This document shows, piece after piece, positions 33,831 through 63,632 of a stretch of DNA of 64,000 bases; positions within the stretch are counted from its first letter, which is position 1; each line of letters opens with the position of its first letter. Both the position numbers and the translations under genes were made by a program. Under the pieces are notes generated by a model. That model did no database searches. It had not been told where the DNA came from and saw nothing but the letters and a program-made list of their open reading frames with translations. The stretch comes from Pirellulimonas nuda (lineage in GTDB: Bacteria > Planctomycetota > Planctomycetia > Pirellulales > Lacipirellulaceae): contig NZ_CP036291.1 of NCBI RefSeq assembly GCF_007750855.1, positions 2,790,001 to 2,854,000 on the forward strand. Direction: 5' to 3'.

Positions 33831-35297
33831 TCACGGCGCCCCCTCGGAGAGGCTTGGCAGCGAGCGCATCAGCCTCTGCTTGACCGCGGTGTAGCGCTCG
33901 TTGTCCGCCAAGTTGTTCCATTCCTGGGTATCGCTCTGGTGATCGTACAGTTCACAGGAGCCATCGGAGTAGCGAATCAGCCGCCAGCGGAGGTCGCGGG
34001 CCGAGTAGACTCCCTTGTTGACCGTTGTGATTACGACCCGGTTGGTCCGGGTTTCGGGCCGGAGTAGCTGAGGGACGAGCGAAACTCCATCGAGCCCCGG
34101 CTTGGGGTCCAAGCCGCACATCTGGATTAGAGTCGGGTACAAATCGATCAACCCCACCGTCTCTTCGCACCGCCCGCCGGTGGCGTACAAGCCGGCGTCT
34201 CTCTTAGGGGGCACGATCACCAGCGGCACTCGAGTGGAGCGTTCCCACCCCGTGGTTTTCCCCCAATGCTCTTTTTCGCCCAGGTGCCAGCCGTGGTCGC
34301 TCCACAGAACTACGAGCGTGTTCTCCGCGTGCGGGCTTTCGTCGAGCGCGTCGAGCAATTCGCCGATCTGCGCGTCGACGAAGGAGATGCATGCCAGGTA
34401 GGCAGCCACGGCCTGCTTCCACTGGCCGTGCCGCAGCACGCTCTGGTGCAGCCCCGCGGTGTCGATGGAGTGGGCTAGCGAGACGGCCTCCGTTCCTAAG
34501 TCGTCCAGGTCGTTGGAGGGGACTTGCGGGACCGTCGTTTGGGCTGCGGGGTACATGTCGAAGTACTTGCGCGGCGCATACAGCGGAATGTGTGGTCGAT
34601 AGAAGCCGGTCGCCAGGAAGAACGGGGTCTTCGTGGCGGCTCCGTCGCGTAGTTGCTCCGCAGACCAGTTCGCGATCTTGCCGTCGCCCATTGCTTCGTC
34701 GTGGACGTCGACGGCGCCCCAATCGAACGAACTGAACCGGCCCGGCTGCAGCCGCTCTCGGTCGTTGGGCATGCCGTTGAGCGGTCGCAGCGGCAATCGT
34801 GACGACAGGGGCGCCGAAAGCGGTTCCTTGCTGTGGTAGGGGCTCCACCGCTGCTCGGTGAAGAACGCGGCGTCGTACAAGTCTCGGAACTCGCGGTGCA
34901 TCAGTTTTCCGGCGCCCAACGTTCGATAGCCGTGGGCGTGAAAGTACTCCGGTAGCAGCGTCAGTTTGGGCCTGAGCTTGCGGATCTGTTGCTGGTTGTC
35001 GTACACGCCCGTATGAAAGGGCTGTTGGCCGCTGAACACCGCCGCTCTGGAGGGGCAGCACAACGGCGCTGCGCAGTGTGCGCTCAAGAACACGACGCCC
35101 CGCCGCGCCAATCGGTCCATATTGGGAGTCTTGACCTGCGGGTGGCCATCGAGGAAGCCCACCCAGTCGTTCAGGTCGTCAACAGCAATAAAGAGCACGT
35201 TCGGACGAGCCCGAGCGGGCGACGTTCCCAGGGCGACAGCCAACAGGAAGGCCGTCAACGCGGCGCACGACTTGAATCGACTTTTCTCAGCAAACAT
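33831..35297 (-). CDS. Sulfatase, iduronate-2-sulfatase-like
   Basis: 488 residues from the ATG at 35297. The signal peptide is CAALTAFLLAVALGTSPARA. The core starts RPNVLFIAVDDLNDWVGFLD, with metal-binding Asp residues. The formylglycine motif is CCPSR (Cys80), followed by AAVFSGQQPFHTGVYDN. GKLMHREF and LWSDHGWHLGEKEHWGKTTG complete the active-site motifs of this group. The gene ends normally. It should cleave sulfate esters from uronic or neutral sugars outside the cytoplasm. It is convergent with the ECF/FecR operon, whose stop is 163 bp away. No PEP-CTERM tail is present. The substrate cannot be predicted from sequence alone. Confidence 0.92.
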   Translation of the reverse strand: MFAEKSRFKSCAALTAFLLAVALGTSPARARPNVLFIAVDDLNDWVGFLDGHPQVKTPNMDRLARRGVVFLSAHCAAPLCCPSRAAVFSGQQPFHTGVYDNQQQIRKLRPKLTLLPEYFHAHGYRTLGAGKLMHREFRDLYDAAFFTEQRWSPYHSKEPLSAPLSSRLPLRPLNGMPNDRERLQPGRFSSFDWGAVDVHDEAMGDGKIANWSAEQLRDGAATKTPFFLATGFYRPHIPLYAPRKYFDMYPAAQTTVPQVPSNDLDDLGTEAVSLAHSIDTAGLHQSVLRHGQWKQAVAAYLACISFVDAQIGELLDALDESPHAENTLVVLWSDHGWHLGEKEHWGKTTGWERSTRVPLVIVPPKRDAGLYATGGRCEETVGLIDLYPTLIQMCGLDPKPGLDGVSLVPQLLRPETRTNRVVITTVNKGVYSARDLRWRLIRYSDGSCELYDHQSDTQEWNNLADNERYTAVKQRLMRSLPSLSEGAP

Positions 35298-43085: not shown

Positions 43086-43352
43086 AGACTAGGTGCCCGC
43101 AAGATGGGGCGTTCGAGGGCACGTAACGTCGCGAGCGTCCGCTCCCCGCTTGGGGCCGCCCACTAGCGTGGATGGAAGGCTCCGCCAAGAAGGTGCGGTC
43201 CTACCCAGCAAGGTGCTGACTACTCAAGCGTGAATCGTTGCGTTCTGGGGGCTGAGTGCTGGCGCGGGGCGGCGGTCAACGGGATCGGCAATTCAAGAGA
43301 GCATGCGCTCTGTCTCGTAATTCTAAGAATTGAGTTTGAGGCTTCCCTACGC

Positions 43353-45251
43353 ATGAATATCGGTCGATTAAGAGCCGCTTGGATTGTTTTGGTCGCGCTG
43401 GCGGCGCATCTGTCGTTGACGAGGCCAATTGCAGCGGAGACGGTTGCTCCGACTCCTGCAAGTGACGTGGCCCTACGAGTGCCGGCGCATCCGGTCGCGC
43501 TTCAGAAGGCGCCGGGTCGCGACGCAATCGAGCTTGTGCGGCAATCGCCGCGGACCGTAGAGCGGCTCGACTCTGGCGTGATGCGCGTCGACTTTGGGAG
43601 AGTCGCGTTCGGCAATCTAGAGTTGACCTCGCCGGCGGGCTTTCAGGACGAGATTGTTGTGCGATTCGGAGAAAAGCAAGCGAACGGCGCAATTGATCGC
43701 GATCCGCCGGGGACGGTGCGTTACAGCGAGGTTCGCGCGCAGATCGTCCCGGGAACGACCACGGTGATCGCCCCGTCTGTGGACGATAGGAATACGCAAC
43801 AATCTGGCGCCGTGGGTCGGTACGGCAACGTCACTCCGCCGGCCGTGCTGACTCCCCCTGAGTGGGGCGTAGTAACTCCCTTCCGATGGGTCGAGATCGA
43901 GGGCATACCCGCCGGCGAGGACGCCGCGAAGGCCGTAACGGTCGTCCGCCTAGCGGCGTTCCCCAAGCACTGGGACGAAGGCGCCGCCGAGTTCCACTGT
44001 TCCGACGCAACCCTGAACCGGGTGTGGGACCTGTGCCGGTACTCCATCAAGGCGACGCTGTTCGCCGGGGTCTACGTCGACGGCGATCGAGAGCGTATCC
44101 CTTACGAGGCCGACGCCTACCTGAACCAACTGAGTCACTACTATGTCGACGCTGATCCCAAAGCGGCGAGGCGGACCTTTGACTGGCTTCTGAAGCATCC
44201 CACCTGGCCGACGGAATGGGGGCCGCACATGGTGTTCATGGCTCACGCCGACTGGATGCGAAACGGCGATGCCGAGTGGATCCGTCAAAGGTACGAGAGC
44301 CTGAAAGCAAAGACGCTCTTCGAGCGCCTCGGCAAGGATGGGCTGGTTCACAGCAACGCCCAGCAGATCGATTGGGATGACATTGTCGACTGGCCGCCTG
44401 TTGAGCGTGACGGCTGCGTTCGCACCGAGGTAAATACCGTCGTCAACGCTTTTCACTTGGCGGCGGTAGAGAAGATGGCTGAGCTGGCGGCCGCCGTCGG
44501 CGCAGATGCCGACGTTCAGTACTACCAGGAGCGTGCAGAGCACGGACGCCGGGTCTTCCGCAGCCAACTCTTCGACGCCGACGCAGGGCTGTACCGCGAC
44601 GGCGTAGGGGTGAACCATCACTCCCAGCACGCCAATTTCTTCCCCCTGGCCTTCGGTCTCGTGGAGAAGAAAGATCGTCAGAAGGTAGCTGAGTGGCTGG
44701 CGTCACGCGGCATGCGCTGCTCGGTGTACGGGGCTCAATACCTGCTGGAGAGCTTGTTCGAGAATGGGGCGGGAGAGGCCGCGGTCGGACTGATCGTCGC
44801 GCCCGGAGAGCGAAGTTGGCGTCACATGCTCGACTCCGACGCAACGATCACGTGGGAGGCATGGAATGAGTCGGCCAAGCCCAACTTAGACTGGAATCAT
44901 GCCTGGGGAGCAGCCCCGGCGAACCTATTGCCGAGATACGTTCTAGGCGCGGAGCCGCTCGCGCCGGGTTGGAGCCGTGCGAGAATCCGTCCGAACCCTA
45001 GCGGCCTGGAGTTCGCCCGAGGCGTGGTGCCCACACCACGTGGACCGGTCGCGATTGATTGGCGACTCGATCGGCGTTTCAGCATGGACCTGGATCTGCC
45101 CGATCGAATGACCGCGTTCGTTCAAGTGCCGAATGTGACCGGCGCCGAGGGGATCTTCGTCAACGGTTCGTCCGCGGAGGCCAAGTTGATTGACGGGTAT
45201 TGGGTGTTGAAAGACGAATTGAAGGGTAGGTCGGCTATTGAAGTGCGCTAG
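43353..45251 (+). CDS. Alpha-L-rhamnosidase-like protein, GH78 type
   Basis: 632 residues from the ATG at 43353; the signal peptide is RAAWIVLVALAAHLSLTRPI. The frame is open upstream to 43230 without signal features. After a beta-sandwich (FGRVAFGNLELTSPAGFQDE), the six-hairpin domain begins. The GH78 acid motif is seen as YVDGDRERIPYEADAYLNQ, with the candidate catalytic Glu or Asp in it. HMLDSDATITWEAWNESAKP and NLDWNHAWGAAPANLLPRYV are conserved near the C-terminus. It should release alpha-L-rhamnose outside the cytoplasm. At about 630 residues it is shorter than many GH78 enzymes, which carry extra sandwich domains. It follows the sigma/FecR pair by 267 bp and its 3-prime end overlaps the convergent PEP-CTERM gene by 17 bp. 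Confidence 0.85.
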   Translation: MNIGRLRAAWIVLVALAAHLSLTRPIAAETVAPTPASDVALRVPAHPVALQKAPGRDAIELVRQSPRTVERLDSGVMRVDFGRVAFGNLELTSPAGFQDEIVVRFGEKQANGAIDRDPPGTVRYSEVRAQIVPGTTTVIAPSVDDRNTQQSGAVGRYGNVTPPAVLTPPEWGVVTPFRWVEIEGIPAGEDAAKAVTVVRLAAFPKHWDEGAAEFHCSDATLNRVWDLCRYSIKATLFAGVYVDGDRERIPYEADAYLNQLSHYYVDADPKAARRTFDWLLKHPTWPTEWGPHMVFMAHADWMRNGDAEWIRQRYESLKAKTLFERLGKDGLVHSNAQQIDWDDIVDWPPVERDGCVRTEVNTVVNAFHLAAVEKMAELAAAVGADADVQYYQERAEHGRRVFRSQLFDADAGLYRDGVGVNHHSQHANFFPLAFGLVEKKDRQKVAEWLASRGMRCSVYGAQYLLESLFENGAGEAAVGLIVAPGERSWRHMLDSDATITWEAWNESAKPNLDWNHAWGAAPANLLPRYVLGAEPLAPGWSRARIRPNPSGLEFARGVVPTPRGPVAIDWRLDRRFSMDLDLPDRMTAFVQVPNVTGAEGIFVNGSSAEAKLIDGYWVLKDELKGRSAIEVR

Positions 45252-49550: not shown

Positions 49551-52500
49551 TCAATAGTCATGTAATATAGGTTTAAAGATCCCAAAGTGAAGTCTAACCG
49601 GACCGATCAGCCCAGAATCAATCAAAGGTGAATCTTGCTCATAGAACCGGCAAGTAGTGAATGACTTTCGCTCCGTCACCGGACGAGGCGAGCCGTTCTC
49701 TAACCAATCGGGAATCTTCTCAATTAGATTCTCTCCCGCTTTACCTCCCGCTTCATAGCGATCAGTAGCGGGATACTGTTCGTCGCCAATTAAGCGATTC
49801 ACCCACAGATTGGTCACCCGCACTTCAAGCTGATTGCCCTTGCCTTTGAGCAGGCCTGTAGCATCGAGTTGGTAGGGCGGCTTCCATAGAATCCCAAGGT
49901 TCTTCCCGTTCAGGAAGACTTCCGCGAAAACCTGCACATCGCCGAGATCGAGACTAACCGCATAACCTTCGCTCCGTCGATCGGTCGGCACATCAAACTG
50001 CTTCTTATAGACAGCGGTTCCGGAGAAAAAGGCTAAATCCGGGTCACCGTGCTTCGGCCACGAAACTAGCTGAGCCAGATTCATCTGGGTCGGTCCCCAG
50101 CCTCTCGGGCAGTGCAGCGTCCAATCCGCAGAGAGGTCAATAGGATCTGGAATCGATGGAATCTTAACCGATTTGCGCGTACCATCCGAATAAAACAACT
50201 CATAGTTCCCCGCCTCCATCGCTGTAAGGACTGAACCATTCTTAGCCATCGACAGCTTGGCGGGAGCTGGAGTTGCAGCAACAGTTTCAAGCCTGCTTCC
50301 CAAGTCGAGCATCTCATTCTCGTCAACAACGATCGTTGACTGAATGCCACCGAGTGAGTAATCGACACGCAATTGTTTCTTCGTTCTAATCGCTGGATCG
50401 CGGCCCGCCAGTCTGTTGTCGGCGGCCAAACGCAGTGAATTGCTTGAGACCCGATTTGCCAACGTATCAGTCACATTCACCTGCCGGCTGGAGTCGCCGT
50501 TCAAATCGCCATAGACCGCTCGATGAATCGCCAAGACCGGCGAAGTTTGGGGCGAGTTGTTAAAAAGTGTTTTCCCGTTGTGAAAGACATCCACCATGCT
50601 CGGCGCTTCGGCCTTTTCGTTAAACACCACAAACACCGATTCGGCGGGTTCCATGAACAGCTTCACCCGTGTGGTGCTATGGTCGGTTGTCTGATACAGC
50701 GGAGCTCTTGATACTTCTCCAGTCTGGGCATTCCACAACTCAGGCACGCGGCCCTTTATGCGAAAAACAACCTCTACCTGACGGGCGACCTCCTGCTGGT
50801 TGGAAATTAAGTACACATCAGCGGAGCCGATCCTTCGATGGATCCATTCATAGCCGCTGCTGCTGACGAGAGCGGGAGCAGTCGCCTGGGCAGAGAAAAA
50901 ACTAACATCCGGCTGTACGCCCATAGACGAAAGAATCTCGGCTAACGATCGGGGCCAGTATAGTCTGCCTTCGTTATAAGCAATTTCTTTCACCTTCGTC
51001 CCATCACAGTCGCGCCACACTTGATCGGCAGTCTTTGCTAACATTCGATCAGCGTTTGGATAATCCTGCAAACCAGGTGTGCCTTGTGGCTTTTTCCAGA
51101 CGACATGCGCGCCGTCACTTAATAACTGTTGAACTTTCTTCAACACCTCGGGACGCACGGGCCCGTCGGGCATGACCAGGAGACGGTATTCCATCAATCC
51201 CGGAAGGACCAAACGCCCTTCATCAACCGACAGCTTTAGCAGGCTATTGCGAGAGATCGTATCGTAGTCATACCCTACCGGCAGAGTCGGATTCATGTCT
51301 TCTCGGGCTTTCGTCGTCTGAGGTGCGCTTTCGCCGGGATAGTAGCAGATGTCGGCCTGAAATGCTCCTTCCTGCAGCAAGTATTGGCTGCGGGCCAGGT
51401 ACTCATTCCAAGCTTTTCCCTGCTCATACCAGGTGTTGTTCCGGTTGTTCTGGAAGCCCCAGGGTCCCATCGTCATGCCCGGCTTCACATCATCGCCCCA
51501 CGGCTGATGAACAAAGGTGTGGAAGATAATGCGGTTGGCGCCCTGGCAGAAGAAATAGTCACCCTGGGCCTTAAGTGCGTAAGGATGATTGACAAAGGCC
51601 GCAGTCATACGTCCTGCGGTGAATGCTTCGGCGCCGACAAAACGGCGACCGTTGGTATGAGCGGCCGATGCAGCCAGTTTTGATGAACTCTTGAATGGTC
51701 CCCCCGTGGTTCTGGCCCACCATTCGCCCATCGGAATATCGACGACATCTGCCACCGCAAAGTCGTCCATGTTGCCTGGCAAACCATAGGGTTCGCACGA
51801 AAGAAGCAAGCCGTTCTGGTGGCACATTTCGGCGAAGTGCCCGAAATAGTTTTCCGTCCACATGTCGGCGATTGTCCGGCGGAAGTCCCAGAGGAAACGT
51901 TCGGTGTGTTCAAGGTCATTGATCACGCGACCCGTTACCGCGGGCAGGTATTTGATGGCGTCATAGCCCATACGACGCTGGAATTCGGTTTCGAAGCCGC
52001 TGGTCCAATTTTGCTGGCCCGTTTCGTAGCTGTCGATCAGCACATTATTGAACGCTTTGCCCGTTAGCGGCCCCGCATCAACAATGACCTTTTGGACGGT
52101 ATGCTTCCAGTGCCATGCCGCGGCGGCTTTACTCATTTTGTCGCACTCGTTCCCCCGCGCTTCCTGAGGAGCAGGGCGGTTTCTAAGCCCGCAGACCGCA
52201 TGCCCGAAGCGGACAATCGTCCAATGGCCTTGCGGTACTTTCCATTTAAGCCAGCCGTTGGCATCCATCTCTTGGGTGAGGTCAACGATGGACGCCAGTT
52301 CAATCAGGTCGCCAGATTCCACCTGGCGGGTGTCCGCCGTAAGTTGATTGTCGCGTTCATAGCCGGCTTTGGCTTTCCAATTCGCCACTCGGAAACCGAT
52401 CTCGCCACTGCGTTCTGATTCAGGGGTTGGGAAAGCCAGTACCGCGATGTCTTGAAAATAGTCATCCCGAAGATTCTTGGGGCGTTGCAGCTTGACATCA

Positions 52501-52940
52501 ACGTTCTTAGGCCCTAGTACCCGCTGCTGTGTCCAGACAACGTTCTGCATCGCATGTTCAGGCGTAATCCACGGTCCGCCGCTGCTCGACCAACCGGCAC
52601 AGTTGTGAAAGCAGACTTCCAGCCCTAGGCGATCCGCCTCTTTGATCGCATGCGTCATTAGCTCGCGCCATTCGGTGCTCAAGTATTTGACCGGCCCAGG
52701 ATCCATGCCCCGTTCAATTTGGAACGCCTGAAGGCCACCGACGCCCGCGCGCGCCATCGCCTCGAGATCTTTTGTAATGCCCTCGGCCGATACATAGCCG
52801 TTCATCCAGTGCCACCAAGTGTGCGGCTTGGCGCATTTCGGTGGTGATTGAAAACGATCCCGCAGCGAATCCGCAGCAAATAGGTGTGAAACAGCGGCAC
52901 AAACAAGAGAGACCACCATAAGTGTTTTCATAGTGTTCAT
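49551..52940 (-). CDS. GH106-type alpha-L-rhamnosidase-like protein, lower-GC gene
   Basis: 1129 residues from the ATG at 52940 (a second ATG at 52931 begins the signal peptide MKTLMVVSLVCAAVSHLFA). The start of the mature protein, RFQSPPKCAKPHTWWHWMNG then YVSAEGITKDLEAMARAGVG, is typical of GH106 and related large glycosidases. GLEVCFHNCAGWSSSGGPWI, FLWDFRRTIADMWTENYFGH and FCQGANRIIFHTFVHQPWGD are further conserved blocks. The C-terminus has a beta-sandwich (VQVFAEVFLNGKNLGILWKP). It should release rhamnose from complex glycans such as ulvan or pectin. It lacks PEP-CTERM and dockerin-like loops. Base use differs from the surroundings: one 60-base row (50161-50220) has 28 G+C against 41 in a row at 55141-55200. 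It is flanked by an IS200-type element and an IS630 relic, so horizontal transfer is likely. Confidence 0.85.
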   Translation of the reverse strand: MNTMKTLMVVSLVCAAVSHLFAADSLRDRFQSPPKCAKPHTWWHWMNGYVSAEGITKDLEAMARAGVGGLQAFQIERGMDPGPVKYLSTEWRELMTHAIKEADRLGLEVCFHNCAGWSSSGGPWITPEHAMQNVVWTQQRVLGPKNVDVKLQRPKNLRDDYFQDIAVLAFPTPESERSGEIGFRVANWKAKAGYERDNQLTADTRQVESGDLIELASIVDLTQEMDANGWLKWKVPQGHWTIVRFGHAVCGLRNRPAPQEARGNECDKMSKAAAAWHWKHTVQKVIVDAGPLTGKAFNNVLIDSYETGQQNWTSGFETEFQRRMGYDAIKYLPAVTGRVINDLEHTERFLWDFRRTIADMWTENYFGHFAEMCHQNGLLLSCEPYGLPGNMDDFAVADVVDIPMGEWWARTTGGPFKSSSKLAASAAHTNGRRFVGAEAFTAGRMTAAFVNHPYALKAQGDYFFCQGANRIIFHTFVHQPWGDDVKPGMTMGPWGFQNNRNNTWYEQGKAWNEYLARSQYLLQEGAFQADICYYPGESAPQTTKAREDMNPTLPVGYDYDTISRNSLLKLSVDEGRLVLPGLMEYRLLVMPDGPVRPEVLKKVQQLLSDGAHVVWKKPQGTPGLQDYPNADRMLAKTADQVWRDCDGTKVKEIAYNEGRLYWPRSLAEILSSMGVQPDVSFFSAQATAPALVSSSGYEWIHRRIGSADVYLISNQQEVARQVEVVFRIKGRVPELWNAQTGEVSRAPLYQTTDHSTTRVKLFMEPAESVFVVFNEKAEAPSMVDVFHNGKTLFNNSPQTSPVLAIHRAVYGDLNGDSSRQVNVTDTLANRVSSNSLRLAADNRLAGRDPAIRTKKQLRVDYSLGGIQSTIVVDENEMLDLGSRLETVAATPAPAKLSMAKNGSVLTAMEAGNYELFYSDGTRKSVKIPSIPDPIDLSADWTLHCPRGWGPTQMNLAQLVSWPKHGDPDLAFFSGTAVYKKQFDVPTDRRSEGYAVSLDLGDVQVFAEVFLNGKNLGILWKPPYQLDATGLLKGKGNQLEVRVTNLWVNRLIGDEQYPATDRYEAGGKAGENLIEKIPDWLENGSPRPVTERKSFTTCRFYEQDSPLIDSGLIGPVRLHFGIFKPILHDY

Positions 52941-53200: not shown

Positions 53201-54320
53201 ATGCGACCCTAAGGAGTCTCCGCCGATCAGGAAGCCCGTCGGCGGCGAGCGGTGAAGCTGCTCGAGGAGGGCTGGATGGTGAAGGACGTGGCCGCGGCGG
53301 TCGGCGCCAGCCGGCAGTCCGTGAGCGCGTGGAGGAAGCGGTCGGGCTCGCGGGGGGAGCAGGCCAAGGCGCTCGCCGCCAAGCCGCAGCACGTGCCCGA
53401 GTGCCGACTATCGGGGCCGCAGCGGACGCGGCTGAAGCGTCTGTTGCGCGCCGGCCCGCGCTGCGTGGCCCAGCTCGTCGAGCTAGAGTTCGGCGTTTCG
53501 TACCACCCCAGCCACCTCGGGCGGTTGCTGCACACGCGCGGGTTCTCATGCCAGAAGCCTGTGCGGCGGAGCCGCGAGCAAGGCCCCGCAGCGGTGCAGG
53601 CGTGGCGCGAGCAGAAGTAGCCGGCGGCAAAAAGAGGGCGTTCGCGATCAAGCTAGCTTGGTTCTTATCGACGAATCGGGCTTCATGCTGCAGCCGCAGG
53701 TGCGTCGCACGTGGGCCCCGATCGGCCAGACCGCGATCCTCGACCAGTGCGACCGTCGCGACCGAGTCAGCGTTGTCACCGCGCTGTCGCTCTCGCCGCG
53801 GTGGCGTCGTGTGCGGATGTTCTTCAGGCTCTTGGACCACAACGCGAAGGCGGAAGACTTCCTCTGGTTCCTGGGCGACCTGCGCCTGGAACTTGGCCGC
53901 AAGCTGCACGTGGTAGGGGACAACCTCGGCGCCCACCGCAGGACGGAGAGCCGACTCGCCGCCTTGGGGTGCGGGTGGGCTCGATCCCACCGCCTGCCCT
54001 CCTACGCCCCCGAGCTCAACCCTGTCGAGCACGACTGGTCGACCAGCAAATGGGGCCCGCTGGCAGGCACGCCGCCGAATGACCTCGATCACCTCCACTG
54101 CGGTGTCGATGGGGAACTCACCCGCCAAGCCCACAGCCAACAACTCCTCCGCAGCCACTTCCGCTGGGCAGAGCTCGAGCTCGGATGGGTTAACTTGCTC
54201 GCACATACGTCAATAGGGTCTACGTTGATTGTGATGCATTTCGCAGCAGCAGTTGGGAGGCCGGCGACTGCGAGCAAGCTGTTACTTGGTGACGTTGAGT
54301 GGATCGGTTCGGCGAGGTGA
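53201..54320 (+). pseudogene. IS630-family transposase, broken by a stop and a frameshift
   Basis: The ATG at 53201 would begin like the 16.3 kb relic, but its fourth codon is TAA (53210-53212). The frame then continues EARRRRAVKLLEEGWMVKDV and AAAVGASRQSVSAWRKRSG, a helix-turn-helix domain, to a TAG at 53618. The catalytic part lies in another frame from about 53658: LVLIDESGFMLQPQVRRTW (first Asp), HVVGDNLGAHRRTES (second Asp) and SYAPELNPVEHDWS (Glu), ending with LLRSHFRWAELE. All three DDE residues are intact but no single frame links them to the DNA-binding domain. An in-frame extension runs to 54320 beyond the usual family end. It lies just beyond the GH106 gene. I found no clear terminal repeats. 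Confidence 0.8.
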
Positions 54321-54872: not shown

Positions 54873-57347
54873 TTACGTCGACAGGCGGATAGCCGGGAAC
54901 GCGACCATCGGACGGGCAACCGATCGGCGCGCGGAGATGATTGAGGCGCCGGCGAGCAACACCACCATCGCCAGGCTGTCTGGCTCTGGCACAGCGGCGT
55001 TTTGGACCGTGGCGGCGGACGACGTCGACTGGCCGAAGTGGTCTCGCCAGGTGTTGTACTGATCGGCGCCGATCGCACCGCTATAAGGGTCGTTGGGGAG
55101 GGTGCCCGCGGGCGCGCCGAGATGGTCCCGCCACACGGTGTAGTCGGCCGCGTCTACGACGCCGTCCCGGTTGTAGTCCCCCGCCAACCCGAGAGACACG
55201 CCGGTGACGCCGACGTTGTCCAAGAACAGATGGTGTCCGCTAGAAGCATCCACCCCCCCGGTAAAGCTGAGGCGGAAGGTGACCGTTCCATTCGCATCCA
55301 GAATATTGTCAGTCAATCCCCTAAGATCGATGCTTTCATCGTCTTGCATCGGGCTCGCGCCTACGGTGGCGGTTCCCGTCGCCAAGGCGCCTGCGGTGAG
55401 GTCTCCCCCTGCGAGCACTGCTAGCTCCCAGTCGGTAGCGGCGTTCGCGCGAAAGGCGCCTAGATCGAAATGAAATCCGGTCAGGATCGTTCCGGCTCCG
55501 GAGGTGTCGTTCAGCGTGAAGTCCATGAACCCGTCATAGCCATTGGATAACGAGACGCCATCGGTAGCGGAGGCCACGGAGGGATCGGCCCCGGTAGGAC
55601 CCACCGCTCCATACCGCCCATCGCTGCTCGCCCCATTTGCGACGGTGGCGTTGCTGAGGTTAAACCACACGCCCCCGGCCTCAACCGAACCAACCGCTTG
55701 AGCCGTGACCCCAGATGATTGCGTGGCGTCCCACGTGTCCGTCGAGACTTCACTCCAGGTCTCCCAGCTCGCAATCAGAGAGCCCGGTATGACTTCGACG
55801 TTAGCCGAGAGATACCGCAGTTGGGGACGCAAGGATTCGTCTCCGCTGTCGCCCGAGGCGAATGCCCAATTCTGGGTGTTGTTGGCGTTGCTGCTGACAC
55901 GCAGGAAGACGTAGTCGCCAGCGCCTTCCCCGCCAGCGTACTGCTCGTTGAGGAAGGAGAGCAGGTTCTTGTTGCCGCCCGAGTTGCTGTAGAAAGACGC
56001 GTTGACGTCCATGTCCGCCGTCAAGAAATTGTCTTGGAGCAGGGTCGCATTGGGGTCAGCGCTGTTCGTAAGCCCGTAGTAGTCGCTGTCGAGGATCTCC
56101 GCCGTGGAACGCCGATCGAGCCCGTACAGGTCGGCGGCTAAACCGTCTTGCGTCGCCGTTTTGGTGAGAAATCCTTCGAAGTAGGTCCACAGGAACGGGT
56201 TATCAACATCGCCGAAATCTGGGAGTTGGAACGGGATCACCGCCGCCCGGTCGTAGGGGGCGGCGCCGGTCTGGCCGACATCCAAACTGCCGCTGTTGAC
56301 GACAAAGCCCAGGTTCGCGCCATCGACCGCGTTGTTGCCCTTGTGGCGCCGCAGCGAGCCGTCGGTCGCGGAAGCGATGGAAGCCGGAAGCTCGAAGCGC
56401 TCGGTGCTGGCCGCGAAGTCTGCCGGCAGCTCGCCCATACGGCCCTCGAAGTACGGCCGCTGCTCAATCAGTGACAGCCATATGCCGGGCATTGTATTTA
56501 GGTAAGCGTTGCCGTTGTTAGTGGTTTCGGGCAACTGGTCTATGTTATCGCCGTAGGTGACCGGTAGGACGACCAACCGATCGCTCTGGACGCCATCGAC
56601 GCCGAGCACATTCTGCATCTCTAGGACGGCTCGCCGAGTGGCTTCGTATTGCGTCAGATTGTTTTCCGATCGGGGGATTTGTATGTAGAGTTCTTTGTCG
56701 CTGTTTACGGAGCTGTTCCAGAAAGAGTTGGCCAACGTGTTGACGTTGAAGTGATTATTCATGAAACGGTCAGCGCTGGCCTCGATCAGCAATCCATCAA
56801 TGACCGGCAGCGAAGCGAAGTCGAGGTTGCGGGCGGCGTTGTTGGCCGCACGCCAGAGGATCCTAGTGTCATGCTGTCCCTGAGCGTCCAGCTCTTCCCG
56901 GAAGATTTGAAGTTCGGTTTCGGTCCAGGTGTACAACTCATCGTCGGGGCCCCGCTCGTCGTAGAGCATGAACTCGGTGAGCTTCGCTCCGTCTTGGCGA
57001 GACACGTTTAACGAATTGGCGATACTATCTGCGATGGCCGCGCGGCTATTTTCATCGACCTGGGTTCGAGTGACTTGTGATCGGGGCACGCCGACCAGGG
57101 TATCTTCGACGTGGTCGATCCGACGAAAAACGTCTTTGCGCTGGGCTCCGGTTGCTTGTTCGGTGCCGTGCGGCGAGCGGTTGTAGTTGTACCCGTCCAC
57201 CCAGGAAGCCGTCCGAGCCCAGGTGGTTGGTTCGGTGGCCAGCCGGCTCGACATCCTATGGGTGCCCATCCAGACTTCGAATGCCTGCGAGGAGGGCGTC
57301 CAAAGGCTGAGAACGATCGTGACCGCGAAGCTTGCTAATTTCTTCAT
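54873..57347 (-). CDS. PEP-CTERM protein of the WMGTH family, array copy 3
   Basis: 824 residues from the ATG at 57347; the signal peptide is KLASFAVTIVLSLWTPSSQA. The N-terminal 270 residues are an unrecognised domain, with FEVWMGTHRMSSRLATEP, FMLYDERGPDDELYTWTETE, LIEASADRFMNN and IPRSENNLTQYEATRR, with the alternating strands and acidic residues of a possible TIM barrel. From about 295 on, the DNA is identical wherever compared to the gene at 59364: a CBM-like middle (PYDRAAVIPFQLPDFGDVDN, YVFLRVSSNANNTQNWAFAS), the GWETWSEV cassette, loop [19 protein letters not shown] and VPEPDSLA. After that the tail differs (MVVLLAGASIISARRSVARP). It lies last in a three-gene array with equal 81-bp spacers. 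No known activity. The tail implies surface attachment. Confidence 0.78.
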   Translation of the reverse strand: MKKLASFAVTIVLSLWTPSSQAFEVWMGTHRMSSRLATEPTTWARTASWVDGYNYNRSPHGTEQATGAQRKDVFRRIDHVEDTLVGVPRSQVTRTQVDENSRAAIADSIANSLNVSRQDGAKLTEFMLYDERGPDDELYTWTETELQIFREELDAQGQHDTRILWRAANNAARNLDFASLPVIDGLLIEASADRFMNNHFNVNTLANSFWNSSVNSDKELYIQIPRSENNLTQYEATRRAVLEMQNVLGVDGVQSDRLVVLPVTYGDNIDQLPETTNNGNAYLNTMPGIWLSLIEQRPYFEGRMGELPADFAASTERFELPASIASATDGSLRRHKGNNAVDGANLGFVVNSGSLDVGQTGAAPYDRAAVIPFQLPDFGDVDNPFLWTYFEGFLTKTATQDGLAADLYGLDRRSTAEILDSDYYGLTNSADPNATLLQDNFLTADMDVNASFYSNSGGNKNLLSFLNEQYAGGEGAGDYVFLRVSSNANNTQNWAFASGDSGDESLRPQLRYLSANVEVIPGSLIASWETWSEVSTDTWDATQSSGVTAQAVGSVEAGGVWFNLSNATVANGASSDGRYGAVGPTGADPSVASATDGVSLSNGYDGFMDFTLNDTSGAGTILTGFHFDLGAFRANAATDWELAVLAGGDLTAGALATGTATVGASPMQDDESIDLRGLTDNILDANGTVTFRLSFTGGVDASSGHHLFLDNVGVTGVSLGLAGDYNRDGVVDAADYTVWRDHLGAPAGTLPNDPYSGAIGADQYNTWRDHFGQSTSSAATVQNAAVPEPDSLAMVVLLAGASIISARRSVARPMVAFPAIRLST
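54969..56478 (-). repeat. 1510-bp direct repeat, copy A
   Basis: Identical, as far as I compared, to 59430-60939 (offset 4461). It covers the codons from the middle of the protein to its PEP-CTERM motif. Flanks diverge abruptly on both sides. Confidence 0.85.
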
Positions 57348-57428
57348 CTGTTTCGGTGTCGAACTTGGGGCTCGTGGGTTTGCTGGGATTGCCTCGGGAG
57401 CTATCGCGATCAACAAGCGGTGATCAAC

Positions 57429-59282
57429 TCAATCGTTGGTGGCAACTGAGGTGCGTCGTGAGAACAGCGAGCCGCAGCCGGCGAGCAGCACCAGCACCGC
57501 CAGGCTGTTTGGCTCTGGCACGGCGGCGTTCTCGACGGAGGCCGTGGCCGACAGCGACTGGCCGAAGGCGTTGCGCCAGGTGTTGTACTGATCGGCGCCG
57601 ATCGTACCGCTATGAGGGTCGTTGGGGAGCGTGCCCGCGGGCGCGCCGAGATGGTCCCGCCACACGGTGTAGTCGGCCGCGTCTACGACGCCGTCCCGGT
57701 TGTAGTCTCCGTGCAAGAACTGTCCTTCGATGGCCCGGTAGATCAACTGCGGCTTGAGGGCGTCGTCGCTCGCATCGCCGGAGTTAAGGCTCCACCGCTG
57801 GGTGGTGTTGGCGTCCGTATTCAACCGCAGGAAGACGTAGTCGCCAATCCCCTCCCCGCCGGCGTACTGATCGTTCAGAAACTCGACCAGGCCGGCGTTG
57901 CCCGTGGCGGACGTTAGGAAGGTCGCGTTGACCGCCATGTCTTCGACCAGCAGGTCGTCTTGCAAGAGCACCGCGTTGGGGTCCGGGGCGTCCGTCTGGC
58001 CGTAGTAGTCTGAGTTCAGGATGTCCGGCGCGACGCGGCGTGCGATGCCGTACAGGTCGCCGCCAACGCTCCCGCTGGTGACGGTCTGGGTAAGGAACCC
58101 CTGGAAGCTGGCGGTCTGGAACGGGTTCTCGATGCTCCCCAGGTCGGGGAGCTGGAAGACCATCACGGCGGCCCGGTCGTAGGCGGGGTTGCTGCCGCTC
58201 TGACCGACATTGAGCTCGTCGCTGTTAATGACGAACCCCAGGCCCTGGCCGCTCACCTCGCCGGTGGTCTTGTCGGACCGCAAGGAGCCATCCGGAACGC
58301 TCGATAAGAGCGACAGGGGAAGCTCCCGCACAAAGCTGTCGGCGAGCGCGTTGGTCGGTACGCCGCTGCGACCCTCAAACAGAGGCCGCTGTTCGAGGAG
58401 TGACAGCGCCAGGCTCGAAAGAGAGTTGGTGTACGAGGCGCCGTTCGAGGTCGTTTCGGGCAGATAGGCGTAGTTGTCGTCGTAGGTCACCGGCAGGAAC
58501 ACAAGTCGCTCGGACTGCACGCCGTTCTCAAAGCCGAGTTCTTGGCCGAGTTTGACCGCGACGCGACGAGTCGCGGCGTACTGCGTCATCGCGTTCTCTG
58601 AGCGTGGGATCTGCAGAATGACGTCCTTACCGACCGTGTTCGGGCTAGTCCACAGCCAATTGAGCAGAGTGGTCTTGCTGTTGGCGTTGGTCAGGAAGTC
58701 GCCTGCGCTGCCCTCGATCAACACGTGATCAACCAGCGGGTTGGCGGCCCAGTCCCGGTTCGCCTGGCTGTTGTTGCGGGCGTTCCAGATCAGATTAATA
58801 TCTTCGTGGCCGTTCGTGTCTAACCACTCACGCATGTGCTGTGCTTCGGTTTGCGTCCAGCTGTAAAGATTGTCATCGACTCTGGTGTCGTGAAACATCA
58901 AGTGATCGACCTCGTACCCAAGAGAATTGCCAAGGCCGATTACTCGCTGTAGCTCCGCGTCAATTGCACCAAAGGCCAATTCATTAACAAGGTTCGTGTT
59001 GCGCGTAACCTGAGAGCGCGCGAAGGGCGCCATCGTATTGCGCGTGTCGCTAACCTGGCCAAGTATGGTCCGCCATTCGGCATTGCTGGCTGGATTTGTG
59101 TCGTGGGGCGCGCGGTTAATCATGACGCCATCGAGCAGACTAGCCGTCATGGCCCAGTCGTCCAGATTGGTCGCCACCGAAGATTGCATCAAGTGCGTGC
59201 CCATCCAGACCTGATAGGCCTGCGAGGAGGGCGTCCAGTGCCCGAGAAACATTATGACCGCGAAGCTTGCTAGTTTCTTCAT
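57429..59282 (-). CDS. PEP-CTERM protein of the WMGTH family, array copy 2
   Basis: 617 residues from the ATG at 59282. The signal peptide is KLASFAVIMFLGHWTPSSQA, nearly that of array copy 3. The N-terminal domain is close to array copy 1: YQVWMGTHLMQSSVATNLDD, VDHLMFHDTRVDDNLYSWT, INLIWNARNNSQANRDWAAN, VDHVLIEGSAGDF, QIPRSENAMTQYAATRR and RLVFLPVTYDDNYAYLPETT. A CBM-like part follows (PAYDRAAVMVFQLPDLGSIE, DYVFLRLNTDANTTQRWSL). It then goes directly into [19 protein letters not shown], without the GWETWSEV cassette present in the other two copies. The tail is VPEPNSLAVLVLLAGCGS with RRTSVATND. Spacers of 81 bp on both sides are similar to each other, indicating tandem duplication. Function is unknown; a glycoside-acting TIM barrel is one possibility. 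Confidence 0.78.
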   Translation of the reverse strand: MKKLASFAVIMFLGHWTPSSQAYQVWMGTHLMQSSVATNLDDWAMTASLLDGVMINRAPHDTNPASNAEWRTILGQVSDTRNTMAPFARSQVTRNTNLVNELAFGAIDAELQRVIGLGNSLGYEVDHLMFHDTRVDDNLYSWTQTEAQHMREWLDTNGHEDINLIWNARNNSQANRDWAANPLVDHVLIEGSAGDFLTNANSKTTLLNWLWTSPNTVGKDVILQIPRSENAMTQYAATRRVAVKLGQELGFENGVQSERLVFLPVTYDDNYAYLPETTSNGASYTNSLSSLALSLLEQRPLFEGRSGVPTNALADSFVRELPLSLLSSVPDGSLRSDKTTGEVSGQGLGFVINSDELNVGQSGSNPAYDRAAVMVFQLPDLGSIENPFQTASFQGFLTQTVTSGSVGGDLYGIARRVAPDILNSDYYGQTDAPDPNAVLLQDDLLVEDMAVNATFLTSATGNAGLVEFLNDQYAGGEGIGDYVFLRLNTDANTTQRWSLNSGDASDDALKPQLIYRAIEGQFLHGDYNRDGVVDAADYTVWRDHLGAPAGTLPNDPHSGTIGADQYNTWRNAFGQSLSATASVENAAVPEPNSLAVLVLLAGCGSLFSRRTSVATND

Positions 59283-59363
59283 CTGTTCCGGTGTTGAATA
59301 GGAGACTCGTAGATTTGCCGAGAGTGCGACCGTTGCTATTGCGATTGGCAACCGGTGGCCAGT

Positions 59364-61826
59364 TCAATCATCAGTGGCAACCGAGGTGCGTTTGACGACC
59401 AGCTTCCCAAAGGCCATCAGCACCAGTACCGCCAGGCTGTCTGGCTCTGGCACAGCGGCGTTTTGGACCGTGGCGGCGGACGACGTCGACTGGCCGAAGT
59501 GGTCTCGCCAGGTGTTGTACTGATCGGCGCCGATCGCACCGCTATAAGGGTCGTTGGGGAGGGTGCCCGCGGGCGCGCCGAGATGGTCCCGCCACACGGT
59601 GTAGTCGGCCGCGTCTACGACGCCGTCCCGGTTGTAGTCCCCCGCCAACCCGAGAGACACGCCGGTGACGCCGACGTTGTCCAAGAACAGATGGTGTCCG
59701 CTAGAAGCATCCACCCCCCCGGTAAAGCTGAGGCGGAAGGTGACCGTTCCATTCGCATCCAGAATATTGTCAGTCAATCCCCTAAGATCGATGCTTTCAT
59801 CGTCTTGCATCGGGCTCGCGCCTACGGTGGCGGTTCCCGTCGCCAAGGCGCCTGCGGTGAGGTCTCCCCCTGCGAGCACTGCTAGCTCCCAGTCGGTAGC
59901 GGCGTTCGCGCGAAAGGCGCCTAGATCGAAATGAAATCCGGTCAGGATCGTTCCGGCTCCGGAGGTGTCGTTCAGCGTGAAGTCCATGAACCCGTCATAG
60001 CCATTGGATAACGAGACGCCATCGGTAGCGGAGGCCACGGAGGGATCGGCCCCGGTAGGACCCACCGCTCCATACCGCCCATCGCTGCTCGCCCCATTTG
60101 CGACGGTGGCGTTGCTGAGGTTAAACCACACGCCCCCGGCCTCAACCGAACCAACCGCTTGAGCCGTGACCCCAGATGATTGCGTGGCGTCCCACGTGTC
60201 CGTCGAGACTTCACTCCAGGTCTCCCAGCTCGCAATCAGAGAGCCCGGTATGACTTCGACGTTAGCCGAGAGATACCGCAGTTGGGGACGCAAGGATTCG
60301 TCTCCGCTGTCGCCCGAGGCGAATGCCCAATTCTGGGTGTTGTTGGCGTTGCTGCTGACACGCAGGAAGACGTAGTCGCCAGCGCCTTCCCCGCCAGCGT
60401 ACTGCTCGTTGAGGAAGGAGAGCAGGTTCTTGTTGCCGCCCGAGTTGCTGTAGAAAGACGCGTTGACGTCCATGTCCGCCGTCAAGAAATTGTCTTGGAG
60501 CAGGGTCGCATTGGGGTCAGCGCTGTTCGTAAGCCCGTAGTAGTCGCTGTCGAGGATCTCCGCCGTGGAACGCCGATCGAGCCCGTACAGGTCGGCGGCT
60601 AAACCGTCTTGCGTCGCCGTTTTGGTGAGAAATCCTTCGAAGTAGGTCCACAGGAACGGGTTATCAACATCGCCGAAATCTGGGAGTTGGAACGGGATCA
60701 CCGCCGCCCGGTCGTAGGGGGCGGCGCCGGTCTGGCCGACATCCAAACTGCCGCTGTTGACGACAAAGCCCAGGTTCGCGCCATCGACCGCGTTGTTGCC
60801 CTTGTGGCGCCGCAGCGAGCCGTCGGTCGCGGAAGCGATGGAAGCCGGAAGCTCGAAGCGCTCGGTGCTGGCCGCGAAGTCTGCCGGCAGCTCGCCCATA
60901 CGGCCCTCGAAGTACGGCCGCTGCTCAATCAGTGACAGCGCAAGGCTGGTGAGCGAGTCGTTGTACGAGGCATCGTTCGAGGTCGTTTCGGGTAGATATG
61001 CGTAGTTGTCGTTGTAGGTGACCGGGAGGAACACCAGCCGTTCGCTCTGTAATCCGTTCTCGTAGCCGATCTCGTTGCCAAGCGTGACTGCGACTTGCCG
61101 GGTCGAGGCGTACTGCGTCATCGCGTTGTTCGACCTAGGGATCTGCAGGATGACGTTCTTGTTGGCGGTGGCGGGGTTGGTCCACAGCCAATTCAGCAGC
61201 GTGATCTGGTTATTGGTGTTGTTGAGAAGCGAGTCCGCGCTCGCTTCGATCATCACATGATCGATCAGCGCGCTGGCGCTCCAATCACGATTCGCTTGGC
61301 TGTTGTTGCGGGCGTTCCAAATAAGACTGACGTCTTGATGGCCATTGGTGTCCAGCCAGCTACGTATGTGCTGCGCCTCGACCTCCGTCCAATTGTAGTT
61401 GTATTGTGTCCCTTGGTAGCTGGTGGCGTTGTCGTAGAACATGAGGTGATCGATGGCGTGGTTGAAATTGCTGGCCTCCTGGAACTTCTGTTGCAACTCC
61501 ACTCCAATCGCGGTGAAAGCTGCCTCGTTGACAGTAAGGGGGTTCTTTGACACCTCGGAGCGTGCGATCTCGGTCATCGTGTTGCTGACATTGGCAAACT
61601 GCCCGAGGACGGTCTGCCATTCCGAATTGCTCGCGGGGTTCGTGTCGTCCGGAGCACGGTTGATGTTCACGCCGTCCAGCCAACTCGCCGTCATGCCCCA
61701 GTCATCCAGATTGGTCGCCACGGAAGATTCCATCAGGTGCGTGCCCATCCAGACCTGATATGCGCAGCATGGTTCTGCGGCAAGGCCGAAGAATATGGTC
61801 GCCACAACAAACGCCTGCTTGGTCAT
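59364..61826 (-). CDS. PEP-CTERM protein of the WMGTH family, array copy 1
   Basis: 820 residues from the ATG at 61826; the signal peptide is KQAFVVATIFFGLAAEPCCA. The N-terminal domain has YQVWMGTHLMESSVATNLDD, IDHLMFYDNATSYQ, VSLIWNARNNSQANRDWSAS, IDHVMIEASADSL, QIPRSNNAMTQYASTRQ and VFLPVTYNDNYAYLPETTSN. From the block SLIEQRPYFEGRMGELPADF to the PEP-CTERM motif its DNA matches the gene at 54873 exactly over 1510 bp. This covers a CBM-like middle, the GWETWSEV cassette and the dockerin-like loop. The tail is VPEPDSLAVLVLMAFGKLVV with KRTSVATDD. It is first in the array. An IS1182-like element begins 38 bp upstream of the start codon, so the promoter has probably been displaced and transcription may come from the element. 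Confidence 0.78.
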   Translation of the reverse strand: MTKQAFVVATIFFGLAAEPCCAYQVWMGTHLMESSVATNLDDWGMTASWLDGVNINRAPDDTNPASNSEWQTVLGQFANVSNTMTEIARSEVSKNPLTVNEAAFTAIGVELQQKFQEASNFNHAIDHLMFYDNATSYQGTQYNYNWTEVEAQHIRSWLDTNGHQDVSLIWNARNNSQANRDWSASALIDHVMIEASADSLLNNTNNQITLLNWLWTNPATANKNVILQIPRSNNAMTQYASTRQVAVTLGNEIGYENGLQSERLVFLPVTYNDNYAYLPETTSNDASYNDSLTSLALSLIEQRPYFEGRMGELPADFAASTERFELPASIASATDGSLRRHKGNNAVDGANLGFVVNSGSLDVGQTGAAPYDRAAVIPFQLPDFGDVDNPFLWTYFEGFLTKTATQDGLAADLYGLDRRSTAEILDSDYYGLTNSADPNATLLQDNFLTADMDVNASFYSNSGGNKNLLSFLNEQYAGGEGAGDYVFLRVSSNANNTQNWAFASGDSGDESLRPQLRYLSANVEVIPGSLIASWETWSEVSTDTWDATQSSGVTAQAVGSVEAGGVWFNLSNATVANGASSDGRYGAVGPTGADPSVASATDGVSLSNGYDGFMDFTLNDTSGAGTILTGFHFDLGAFRANAATDWELAVLAGGDLTAGALATGTATVGASPMQDDESIDLRGLTDNILDANGTVTFRLSFTGGVDASSGHHLFLDNVGVTGVSLGLAGDYNRDGVVDAADYTVWRDHLGAPAGTLPNDPYSGAIGADQYNTWRDHFGQSTSSAATVQNAAVPEPDSLAVLVLMAFGKLVVKRTSVATDD
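59430..60939 (-). repeat. 1510-bp direct repeat, copy B
   Basis: Matches 54969-56478 with no difference seen. Lies in the same part of the reading frame. Confidence 0.85.
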
Positions 61827-61863
61827 GTGTTCCGTCTGCCTGCTGGTCTTGCCCGCGTGCCGC

Positions 61864-63276
61864 CTAACAGCCCGTTGATCTAAGCGCATACTCCTGCGGC
61901 CCGCCAACTGTGAGCAGTTGGAGGCGTGACTCTGTAGGCCGGGCTCCCAGGCGAGCATGTGTGTCCCACAAGTTCTTCATCGCCGCGATGAGAAGCCAGG
62001 CGAGCTGCATAAGCCCGGCGGAGCCACCTTCGCCCTGCAGGCCCCTCGGCGTGCCGATCCCGAACAGCTTCCGCATTACCAGGCCCAGGTTCCGCACCAG
62101 CGCCGACGTCAGTAACCGCTTCCTCACCTTGTCGATCCCCCGCAGCCATGTGCGGCGTGACCCGCCGGTGTCGCACACGTGGGCGAAGCTGCGCTCGACC
62201 CGTTCACTCCTCAGCCGCTGGAGCCGTTTGTTCTTGGCGGTCTTGGTCCGCCGGCGGTTACCCTTCACCGCGCGCTGCTGCTCGACTGGCTTGGCGCTCA
62301 GACGCGACTCGCCGCGGCGCTTGGGCTCCGGCACATACGTCCGCACCCCGACCGACGTGACCAGTTCCAGCTGCTCGGCAGCGTGGTAGCCCTTGTCGGC
62401 AACCGCTTCTTCGATCTGCGCTTCCAGCCCAGCCTCTGACAGGTGCGTCTGCGCCTCCATCACACTGTCGCAGAGGGTCTTCGTGTCGCTGTGGTCGCCG
62501 TGATAGACCTCTGCCGCCAAGATCAGCTCCGTATCGATATCGACCACGTGCTCCGCCTTGTACGCCAAATGCGTGCGGCCGTCCTTGAGCTTGGTGATCC
62601 GTGCGCTCGGGTCGGTCGTGCTGACCCACTCGGCGTTCGAGACCTTTTTGTTCTTCCGCTTCTTATCGAAACGGCGGACCTCGTCGTCGCTCGGCTCGTC
62701 TTCTTTTTCGATCACTCCTTCCTTCTTCATCAAGCCAATGACGTACGCCTTCCAGTCTTCTCCTGTGTCGCGCCGCACGATGCTCTTCATCGCCGCATCG
62801 GCTTCAAGGGTAGTCGAATCGACCGCTACCGTCTTGCCTTTTAGCAGCCCCTGCTGCGCCGCCAGTTGCAGCACCAGCCGGAACACTTCCTGGTGGACTT
62901 CTAGCGGCAGGCGGTCGCGGACCCGGCTGAGCGTCGAGTGATCGGGGGTCGCCTCGGTCAGCGGAACGCCCAGGAACTCCCGCAGGCTGAGGCTGTCGGC
63001 GCACCGCCACGCGATGCCCCGCTGTGAACCGATCCCCTCGAAGTAACCCACCATCAACATCCGGAAGTAGACTCCCGGCGGGACCGACGGCCGCCCACGC
63101 GTGCCGGTCGGCTGGTAGTACGGCTCGCACAGCTTCTCGACCTCGCGGTCGAAGCCCGCCTCGGAAAGCAGCCTATTGAGCCGCTTGTAGAACGCGTGCC
63201 CCTGACTCTTGGGCAGCTGCTCTGCCGTCACGAACAACACGTCCTGCCGATCCCGCTCTCGCCTTCCCATCCCCAT
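61864..63276 (-). CDS. IS1182-like transposase
   Basis: 470 residues from the ATG at 63276, which has AGGAG seven bases upstream. The N-terminal DUF772-like part has CEPYYQPTGTRGRPSVPPGV followed by YFRMLMVGYFEGIGSQRGIA. The first catalytic Asp is in KTVAVDSTTLEADAAM, the second in EAVADKGYHAAEQLE, and the Glu in RSERVERSFAHVCDTGG. A charged insertion (EDEPSDDEVRRFDKKRKNKK) lies between. The C-terminal end is encoded by the inverted repeat. Length and motif spacing are normal for the IS1182/IS5 supergroup, and the frame is uninterrupted, so it could be active. The gene runs in the same direction as the PEP-CTERM array downstream, and read-through could affect that array. Confidence 0.9.
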   Translation of the reverse strand: MGMGRRERDRQDVLFVTAEQLPKSQGHAFYKRLNRLLSEAGFDREVEKLCEPYYQPTGTRGRPSVPPGVYFRMLMVGYFEGIGSQRGIAWRCADSLSLREFLGVPLTEATPDHSTLSRVRDRLPLEVHQEVFRLVLQLAAQQGLLKGKTVAVDSTTLEADAAMKSIVRRDTGEDWKAYVIGLMKKEGVIEKEDEPSDDEVRRFDKKRKNKKVSNAEWVSTTDPSARITKLKDGRTHLAYKAEHVVDIDTELILAAEVYHGDHSDTKTLCDSVMEAQTHLSEAGLEAQIEEAVADKGYHAAEQLELVTSVGVRTYVPEPKRRGESRLSAKPVEQQRAVKGNRRRTKTAKNKRLQRLRSERVERSFAHVCDTGGSRRTWLRGIDKVRKRLLTSALVRNLGLVMRKLFGIGTPRGLQGEGGSAGLMQLAWLLIAAMKNLWDTHARLGARPTESRLQLLTVGGPQEYALRSTGC

Positions 63277-63369
63277 CGCTTCGCTCCTGCTCAAGTCACG
63301 CTTTCGTCGGCGACGCAGTTTAGCGCCAAGGGGTTGGTCGGGGGAGTGGCATTTTTCAACGGGCTGTTA
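61865..63369 (-). mobile_element. IS1182-like insertion sequence, apparently complete
   Basis: 1505 bp bounded by perfect 14-bp inverted repeats: TAACAGCCCGTTGA at 61865-61878 and its complement at 63356-63369. One intact transposase fills it; its TAG stop lies across the left repeat edge. I could not identify a target duplication. Its left edge is 38 bp upstream of the PEP-CTERM gene at 59364-61826. Confidence 0.82.
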
Positions 63370-63632
63370 AGGCTGAACCGCAGCCGAGCTTGGCCTAGGA
63401 CTCCTTTCTATTGACTAATGCATGGCTAATTTGACGCAGGATCACGCGAAAGCCCTTCAAAACAAGCGGTCCCTGCGTTGAGGGATGTGAAGTTCCCGAG
63501 GCCTTAGTCAATAGTTGCACATCAGCAGCCGGTGAGTTCCGTTGGCCGAATCGACCGCACCAATACTGCCAATGGCTCATGTTTTAGCTGCATTATATCT
63601 AGAAAAGCCTGACCTGTGCGGTACGTCTTCGA
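63370..63632. other. Intergenic region beyond the IS1182-like element
   Basis: No recognisable gene. A short minus-strand frame (63395-63580) has no family features. It may hold the original upstream region of the PEP-CTERM array, now separated by the insertion. Confidence 0.35.

Follow-up and report, generated by a model that had tools for sequence, protein, structure and literature searches.

A rare domain family with a predicted TIM-barrel fold in a tandem array of putative surface proteins from Pirellulimonas nuda

Introduction

Rha-alpha-1,4-GlcA bonds are cleaved by beta-propeller enzymes of the PL42 and GH145 families (PF15892), represented by FoRham1 and BT3686 (PMC8377490, PMC8406133). 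FoRham1, a BNR_4 protein, is the founder of PL42 (PMC8377490), and GH145 enzymes, which cut Rha-GlcA bonds by hydrolysis or elimination, resemble the PL25 ulvan lyases (PMC8406133). Some Verrucomicrobiota are known to be specialists for sulfated polymers of rhamnose and fucose (PMC8857213). The systems of that report resemble the loci described here in the kind of organism and in their GH78, GH106, sulfatases and methyl pentose catabolism; a search of its main text, in contrast, found none of the terms PL27, GH145, BNR and 'hypothetical', nor a mention of the domain treated below. Among glycoside hydrolases that fold as TIM barrels, those of clan GH-A (GH5, GH26, GH30, GH10) have conserved glutamates where strands 4 and 7 end.

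Here, we describe an array of three genes in a stretch of 64,000 nucleotides of DNA from Pirellulimonas nuda (the window), whose products have in common an N-terminal domain (N-domain) and carry further modules, termed D2 and D3. PL42/GH145 propellers are encoded beside the N-domain in related loci, sometimes together with D2 or D3, but they are beta-propeller lyases or hydrolases, and homology to the N-domain was not found. Similarly, GH78 and GH106 alpha-L-rhamnosidases occur in most loci with an N-domain, but they belong to unrelated sequence families.

Results

All three genes are on the minus strand, arranged head to tail (Table 1). Each open reading frame opens with a signal peptide, and the mature proteins start with AYQVWMGTH (genes 1 and 2) or AFEVWMGTH (gene 3). 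All three begin with an N-domain of ~300 residues, with 69% identity between genes 1 and 2 and 42% between genes 1 and 3. An initial annotation of the window had proposed such a shared domain, which was borne out, and had put its length at about 280 residues, which is slightly short, as conservation runs ~15-18 residues beyond the FEGR motif. The motifs that it listed, H-x-MFYD and LIWNARNN, are the forms of gene 1, whereas gene 2 reads HLMFHD and gene 3 reads MLYD and ILWRAANN. Both spacers are exactly as long as it had stated, and 55 of their 81 positions are identical to each other.

The tail of the array proteins consists of a dockerin-like repeat and a PEP-CTERM motif, each under its curated cut-off (for the VPEP motif, a score of 13.6 against 20.7). 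Tails of this type are matched at ~150 places of the genome, which encodes two exosortases. From the signal peptide, the PEP motif and the exosortases, the proteins look surface-displayed, with sorting predicted, in agreement with the surface tail noted initially. D2 was also found in related Verrucomicrobiota proteins and in one Haloferula BNR_4 lyase-like protein, and D3 in Bythopirellula BNR_4 lyase-like proteins and in a further protein of the window (47003-48877). The latter is a secreted protein with D3, a dockerin-like repeat and a PEP-CTERM motif; its N-terminal ~250 residues gave no Pfam match and nothing significant in a PDB search, and a homologue is encoded in Bythopirellula (L038 5536-7251).

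Table 1 Features of the array and its surroundings (positions in the window).
Feature	Position	Strand	Description
Gene 1 (P0002)	59364..61826	-	820 aa; signal peptide, type A N-domain, D2, D3, dockerin-like repeat, PEP-CTERM
Gene 2 (P0001)	57429..59282	-	617 aa; type A N-domain, D2, dockerin-like repeat, PEP-CTERM; without D3
Gene 3 (P0003)	54873..57347	-	824 aa; type B N-domain; D2, D3 and most of tail as in gene 1
N-domain of gene 1	60843..61763	-	307 aa, numbered from A of AYQVWMGTH = 1; predicted (beta/alpha)8 barrel
N-domain of gene 2	58314..59219	-	
N-domain of gene 3 (type B)	56382..57284	-	91% identity to one Bythopirellula copy
D2 module of gene 1	60261..60842	-	without Pfam or NCBIfam match
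D3 module of gene 1	59649..60260	-	first residues VEVIPGSLIASW; without Pfam match
Codon of E173	61245..61247	-	E194 of gene 1; end of predicted strand 6; conserved in 14/15 members
Codon of E259	60987..60989	-	E280 of gene 1; PET motif, loop after predicted strand 8; 15/15 members
Spacer, genes 1/2	59283..59363	-	81 bp
Spacer, genes 2/3	57348..57428	-	81 bp
Gene conversion tract in gene 1	59412..60922	-	identical to gene 3 over ~1510 bp
Matching tract in gene 3	54951..56461	-	ends approximate
IS1182-type insertion sequence	61863..63373	-	ends 37 bp before start codon of gene 1
GH106 alpha-L-rhamnosidase	49551..52940	-	PF17132, E 2.7e-195
GH78 alpha-L-rhamnosidase	43230..45251	+	PF17389, E 2.5e-58
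Sulfatase	33831..35297	-	homologous to sulfatase gene of Bythopirellula locus

Single-sequence and profile searches of the N-domain against Pfam, NCBIfam and the PDB gave no match, in line with the initial failure to assign it. A model built from the three array copies retrieved an independent, distant, stand-alone planctomycete homologue (E 1.2e-6). This value, together with a dN/dS of 0.09-0.19, places the similarity of the array N-domains far beyond chance, and the domain is under purifying selection. N-domain models further retrieved three copies in Bythopirellula polymerisocia and relatives in Roseibacillus and a Verrucomicrobiales MAG, as well as an Akkermansiaceae fragment. Haloferula carries two copies, one of them distant, and genome G1097 has one modular and one stand-alone copy. 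The stand-alone relative of G1097 (L068 14338-15363) is divergent in sequence and divergently transcribed, ~1.8 kb from the modular one. One stand-alone protein of Verrucomicrobiota came from the initial models and a second was added later. Such a profile search for relatives and their gene context had been proposed with the initial annotation; it brought the known membership to 15 full-length proteins and one fragment, in Planctomycetota and Verrucomicrobiota, with neighbours of the rhamnose type in most loci (see below).

Because several members are stand-alone secreted proteins, the N-domain is a real domain family; it is coherent and rare, and has no Pfam, NCBIfam or PDB sequence assignment. 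It was found in none of the 96 other genomes of the order, in one of the 391 other genomes of the phylum sample, and in seven of the 244 genomes of the best-stocked Verrucomicrobiota family, and no homologues were found in IMG/VR viral contigs or in plasmids.

Invariant or nearly so among the 15 members are W22, G31, R134, E173, P258-E259, E280, R282, and E286-G287-R288. In the most distant member, MAFFT puts N at column 173, and VVFEF fits VMIEA after a local shift; this shift, which gives E173 in the 15th member as well, is a manual adjustment of the MAFFT alignment. From the three window copies alone, WMGTH and MFYD would have seemed key, and the initial annotation had indeed offered them as family-wide marks; the wider alignment indicates instead that WMGTH and the D of MFYD mark subfamilies only. 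This D was dropped as a candidate catalytic acid, not being conserved across the family. A literature search on the letters WMGTH returned a single, unrelated paper.

AlphaFold2 models of the N-domain reached mean pLDDT values of 67.5 and 62.4 with alignments of 10 and 11 sequences, drawn up without the relatives from genome searches, and a longer construct in a second run did not raise the confidence. In these models strands and helices alternate and follow one another as in an eight-stranded beta/alpha barrel. Strands 3 to 7 have pLDDT values mostly above 80, and strands 1, 2, and 8 mostly below 50; strands 1 and 2 were assigned mainly from the sequence pattern. The matches returned by Foldseek and VIA-align were almost all barrels (GH30, GH18, GH26, GH10, GH66, aldo-keto reductases, sugar isomerases), with a best Z of ~10, many ties, and no known family standing out. 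The TIM barrel suggested by the initial annotation, which had proposed structure prediction and fold comparison, is thus very probably the fold of this domain, with both ends modelled at low pLDDT.

E173 and E259 are the only invariant acids on the expected catalytic face, where the models would place them after strands 6 and 8, respectively, whereas E280 and E286, in or after the last helix, would lie towards the opposite end of the barrel. Because the model is poor from strand 8 onward, we infer these placements rather than read them directly. The initial expectation of conserved acidic residues is thus narrowed to E173 and E259.

The N-domain could also be a known TIM-barrel glycoside hydrolase (e.g. 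GH26, GH30, GH5, GH18, or GH66) that has diverged beyond profile recognition, although we consider this unlikely. Those families are among the structural matches, and the predicted strand-helix barrel aligns with them at Z 8-10 over ~200-245 residues (Foldseek E ~1e-3). However, the top structural rows tie across many unrelated families, non-hydrolases included, no single family stands out, and neither sequence nor profile similarity was detected. Moreover, the acids of clan GH-A are not conserved: with strands taken from the AlphaFold2 models, strand 4 ends in D, N, G, or H, and the end of strand 7 (QIPR, QVPF, HCHL) has no conserved acid.

The array stands among polysaccharide-degrading genes of the window, including GH106, GH78, and sulfatase genes, a setting in keeping with the role first proposed for it. 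Several genes between 33.9 and 61.8 kb have homologues in the Bythopirellula region; unlike that region, the window contains no BNR_4 genes, and in this genome none was found within 500 kb of the array. The DNA that holds the GH106 gene has 54-56% G+C, against 60-65% in its surroundings, which suggests that this gene is of foreign origin. The array is bracketed by insertion sequences, with an IS630-like transposase split over two frames (53252-54320, plus strand) between the GH106 gene and gene 3, so labelled from the look of the sequence rather than from a library match, and an IS1182-type element on the side of gene 1. A search found eight other full-length copies of the latter in the genome, 93-100% identical. 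With the end of this element so close to the first codon of gene 1, the original upstream region of the array is probably gone.

In Bythopirellula, all three N-domain copies directly adjoin a BNR_4 gene; a gene for L-rhamnose isomerase follows one of these BNR_4 genes, and a class II aldolase and an FMN-dependent dehydrogenase are encoded close by. An adjoining BNR_4 gene was also found in Haloferula and in the Verrucomicrobiales MAG, and the distance is ~14 kb in Roseibacillus and 15-16 kb in G1097. The neighbouring BNR_4 proteins score above the PF15892 cut-off and are similar to FoRham1 over the propeller. FoRham1 is also their best PDB match (E 1.8e-47 to 7.7e-53), with GH145 enzymes next, and two of the three BNR_4 proteins searched matched ulvan lyases as well. 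In the Verrucomicrobiota family, BNR_4 occurs in 61 of 244 genomes versus six of the seven that carry an N-domain (hypergeometric P 0.0011, a value that overstates independence, the genomes being few and related). GH78, GH106, and sulfatase genes also recur in N-domain loci. A protein starting with YQESGGLVVMEAE, or near it, is encoded near the N-domain in four Verrucomicrobiota loci (L039 16888-18063, L042 1829-5473, L069 7885-12921, and L029).

A rhamnose substrate is favoured because the Bythopirellula copies adjoin PL42/GH145-like genes, one group of them beside L-rhamnose isomerase, and because GH78, GH106, and sulfatases recur. Of the sulfated fucans and rhamnans named initially as substrates, the context is thus in favour of rhamnose/uronate, and nothing ties the domain to fucans. 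Fucan was set aside as a candidate: GH29 and GH141 genes lie ~45 kb away in the window, and none is among the annotated neighbours of the other loci. The neighbourhoods of two stand-alone Verrucomicrobiota members (L023 and L034), read from sequence, contain no obvious polysaccharide genes, and for these two members the proposed substrate may not hold.

A stretch of ~1510 bp, reaching from the N-domain end nearly to the stop codon, is identical in genes 1 and 3, against ~55% identity in the DNA of their N-domains. Because of this identity, a recent gene conversion must have replaced the C-terminal half under differing N-domains. The type B linker EQRPYFEGRMGELPADFAASTERF is present in gene 1, which is therefore probably a chimera with gene 3 as the donor. 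Two Bythopirellula copies have diverged N-domains, yet 733 bp of their D3 and tail are 97% identical; the same homogenising process has evidently been at work there, judging by the DNA. Gene 3 pairs with one Bythopirellula copy as type B (support 97/100), and types A and B are both present in Bythopirellula too. Given the pairing of gene 3 with a Bythopirellula copy, either both types existed before the two genera separated or there was a later exchange. The array therefore does consist of tandem copies, as claimed initially, but not of three simple duplicates, given that both types recur in Bythopirellula and that genes 1 and 3 were later homogenised by gene conversion. Gene 3 and the Bythopirellula gene share 87.7% DNA identity over 1515 bp (window 55805-57318, L035 12452-13965), against 72-77% for most other genes common to the window and Bythopirellula. 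The N-domain dS is 0.29 for gene 3 and its Bythopirellula counterpart versus 1.4 to 1.9 for type A. The unusual closeness of this pair suggests a recent transfer of a gene 3-type gene.

Discussion

We moderately favour the view that the N-domain is the catalytic part of surface proteins, namely a new barrel enzyme, probably a glycoside hydrolase, acting on a rhamnose/uronate polysaccharide. That the domain acts on carbohydrate is likely, and the gene neighbourhood makes a rhamnose/uronate polymer, for example ulvan or rhamnose-capped arabinogalactan, its somewhat probable substrate. More tentatively, the N-domain may constitute a new glycoside hydrolase family that uses the glutamates after strands 6 and 8, operates with PL42/GH145-like lyases, and has diversified through exchange of catalytic domains on top of a common surface-binding half, a full combination that we regard as possible rather than probable. 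Counting against the favoured explanation are the barrel ends (pLDDT mostly below 50, means of 62-68), the match to no specific enzyme family, the placement of E173 and E259, which differs from the textbook arrangement of clan GH-A, the lack of BNR_4 genes within 500 kb of the array in its own genome, and the neighbourhoods of L023 and L034.

It is improbable that the barrel is non-catalytic, with a glycan-binding or structural role. Such a role would agree with the missing known catalytic signature, and with a repertoire that grows by copying and interchanges its C-terminal halves, but E173 and E259, on the expected catalytic face, are kept in members down to ~20% identity, and the N-domain also occurs as a lone secreted domain. 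We give about as little credence to a surface sugar-acting barrel enzyme other than a glycosidase (isomerase, epimerase, lyase, or oxidoreductase-like), because, although sugar isomerases and epimerases, including L-rhamnose isomerase, are among the best Foldseek rows, every row is weak, the proteins are secreted and bear tail modules characteristic of enzymes that act on polymers, and the metal-binding set of the L-rhamnose isomerase type (His/Asp/Glu) is absent from the conserved residues of the 15 members, which have no conserved His.

In the mechanism that we propose, secretion and exosortase sorting would bring the array protein to the cell surface, with the dockerin-like/PEP-CTERM tail as anchor. 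D2 and D3, which also occur in lyase-like proteins encoded at related loci, would act as substrate-binding or spacer modules common to enzymes of one locus and probably bind the same polymer. The N-domain would then cleave a glycosidic bond of the polymer by hydrolysis, with E173 and E259 as putative acid and base or nucleophile. PL42/GH145-like lyases, GH78 and GH106 rhamnosidases, and sulfatases would complete the breakdown, and the rhamnose products would enter catabolism via L-rhamnose isomerase (RhaA) and aldolase, as expected from the known functions of these families. Types A and B may attack different bonds of the same polymer with one interchangeable C-terminal half.

Rhamnose-rich acidic polysaccharides, among them ulvan and rhamnose-capped arabinogalactans, store much carbon, and the set of enzymes described for their unusual bonds is incomplete. 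Absent from the family libraries searched and encoded beside rhamnose-glucuronate lyases in related loci, the N-domain makes a concrete candidate for one of the activities still missing. The array also illustrates how one surface-anchoring half may be reused under differing, putatively catalytic domains through gene conversion.
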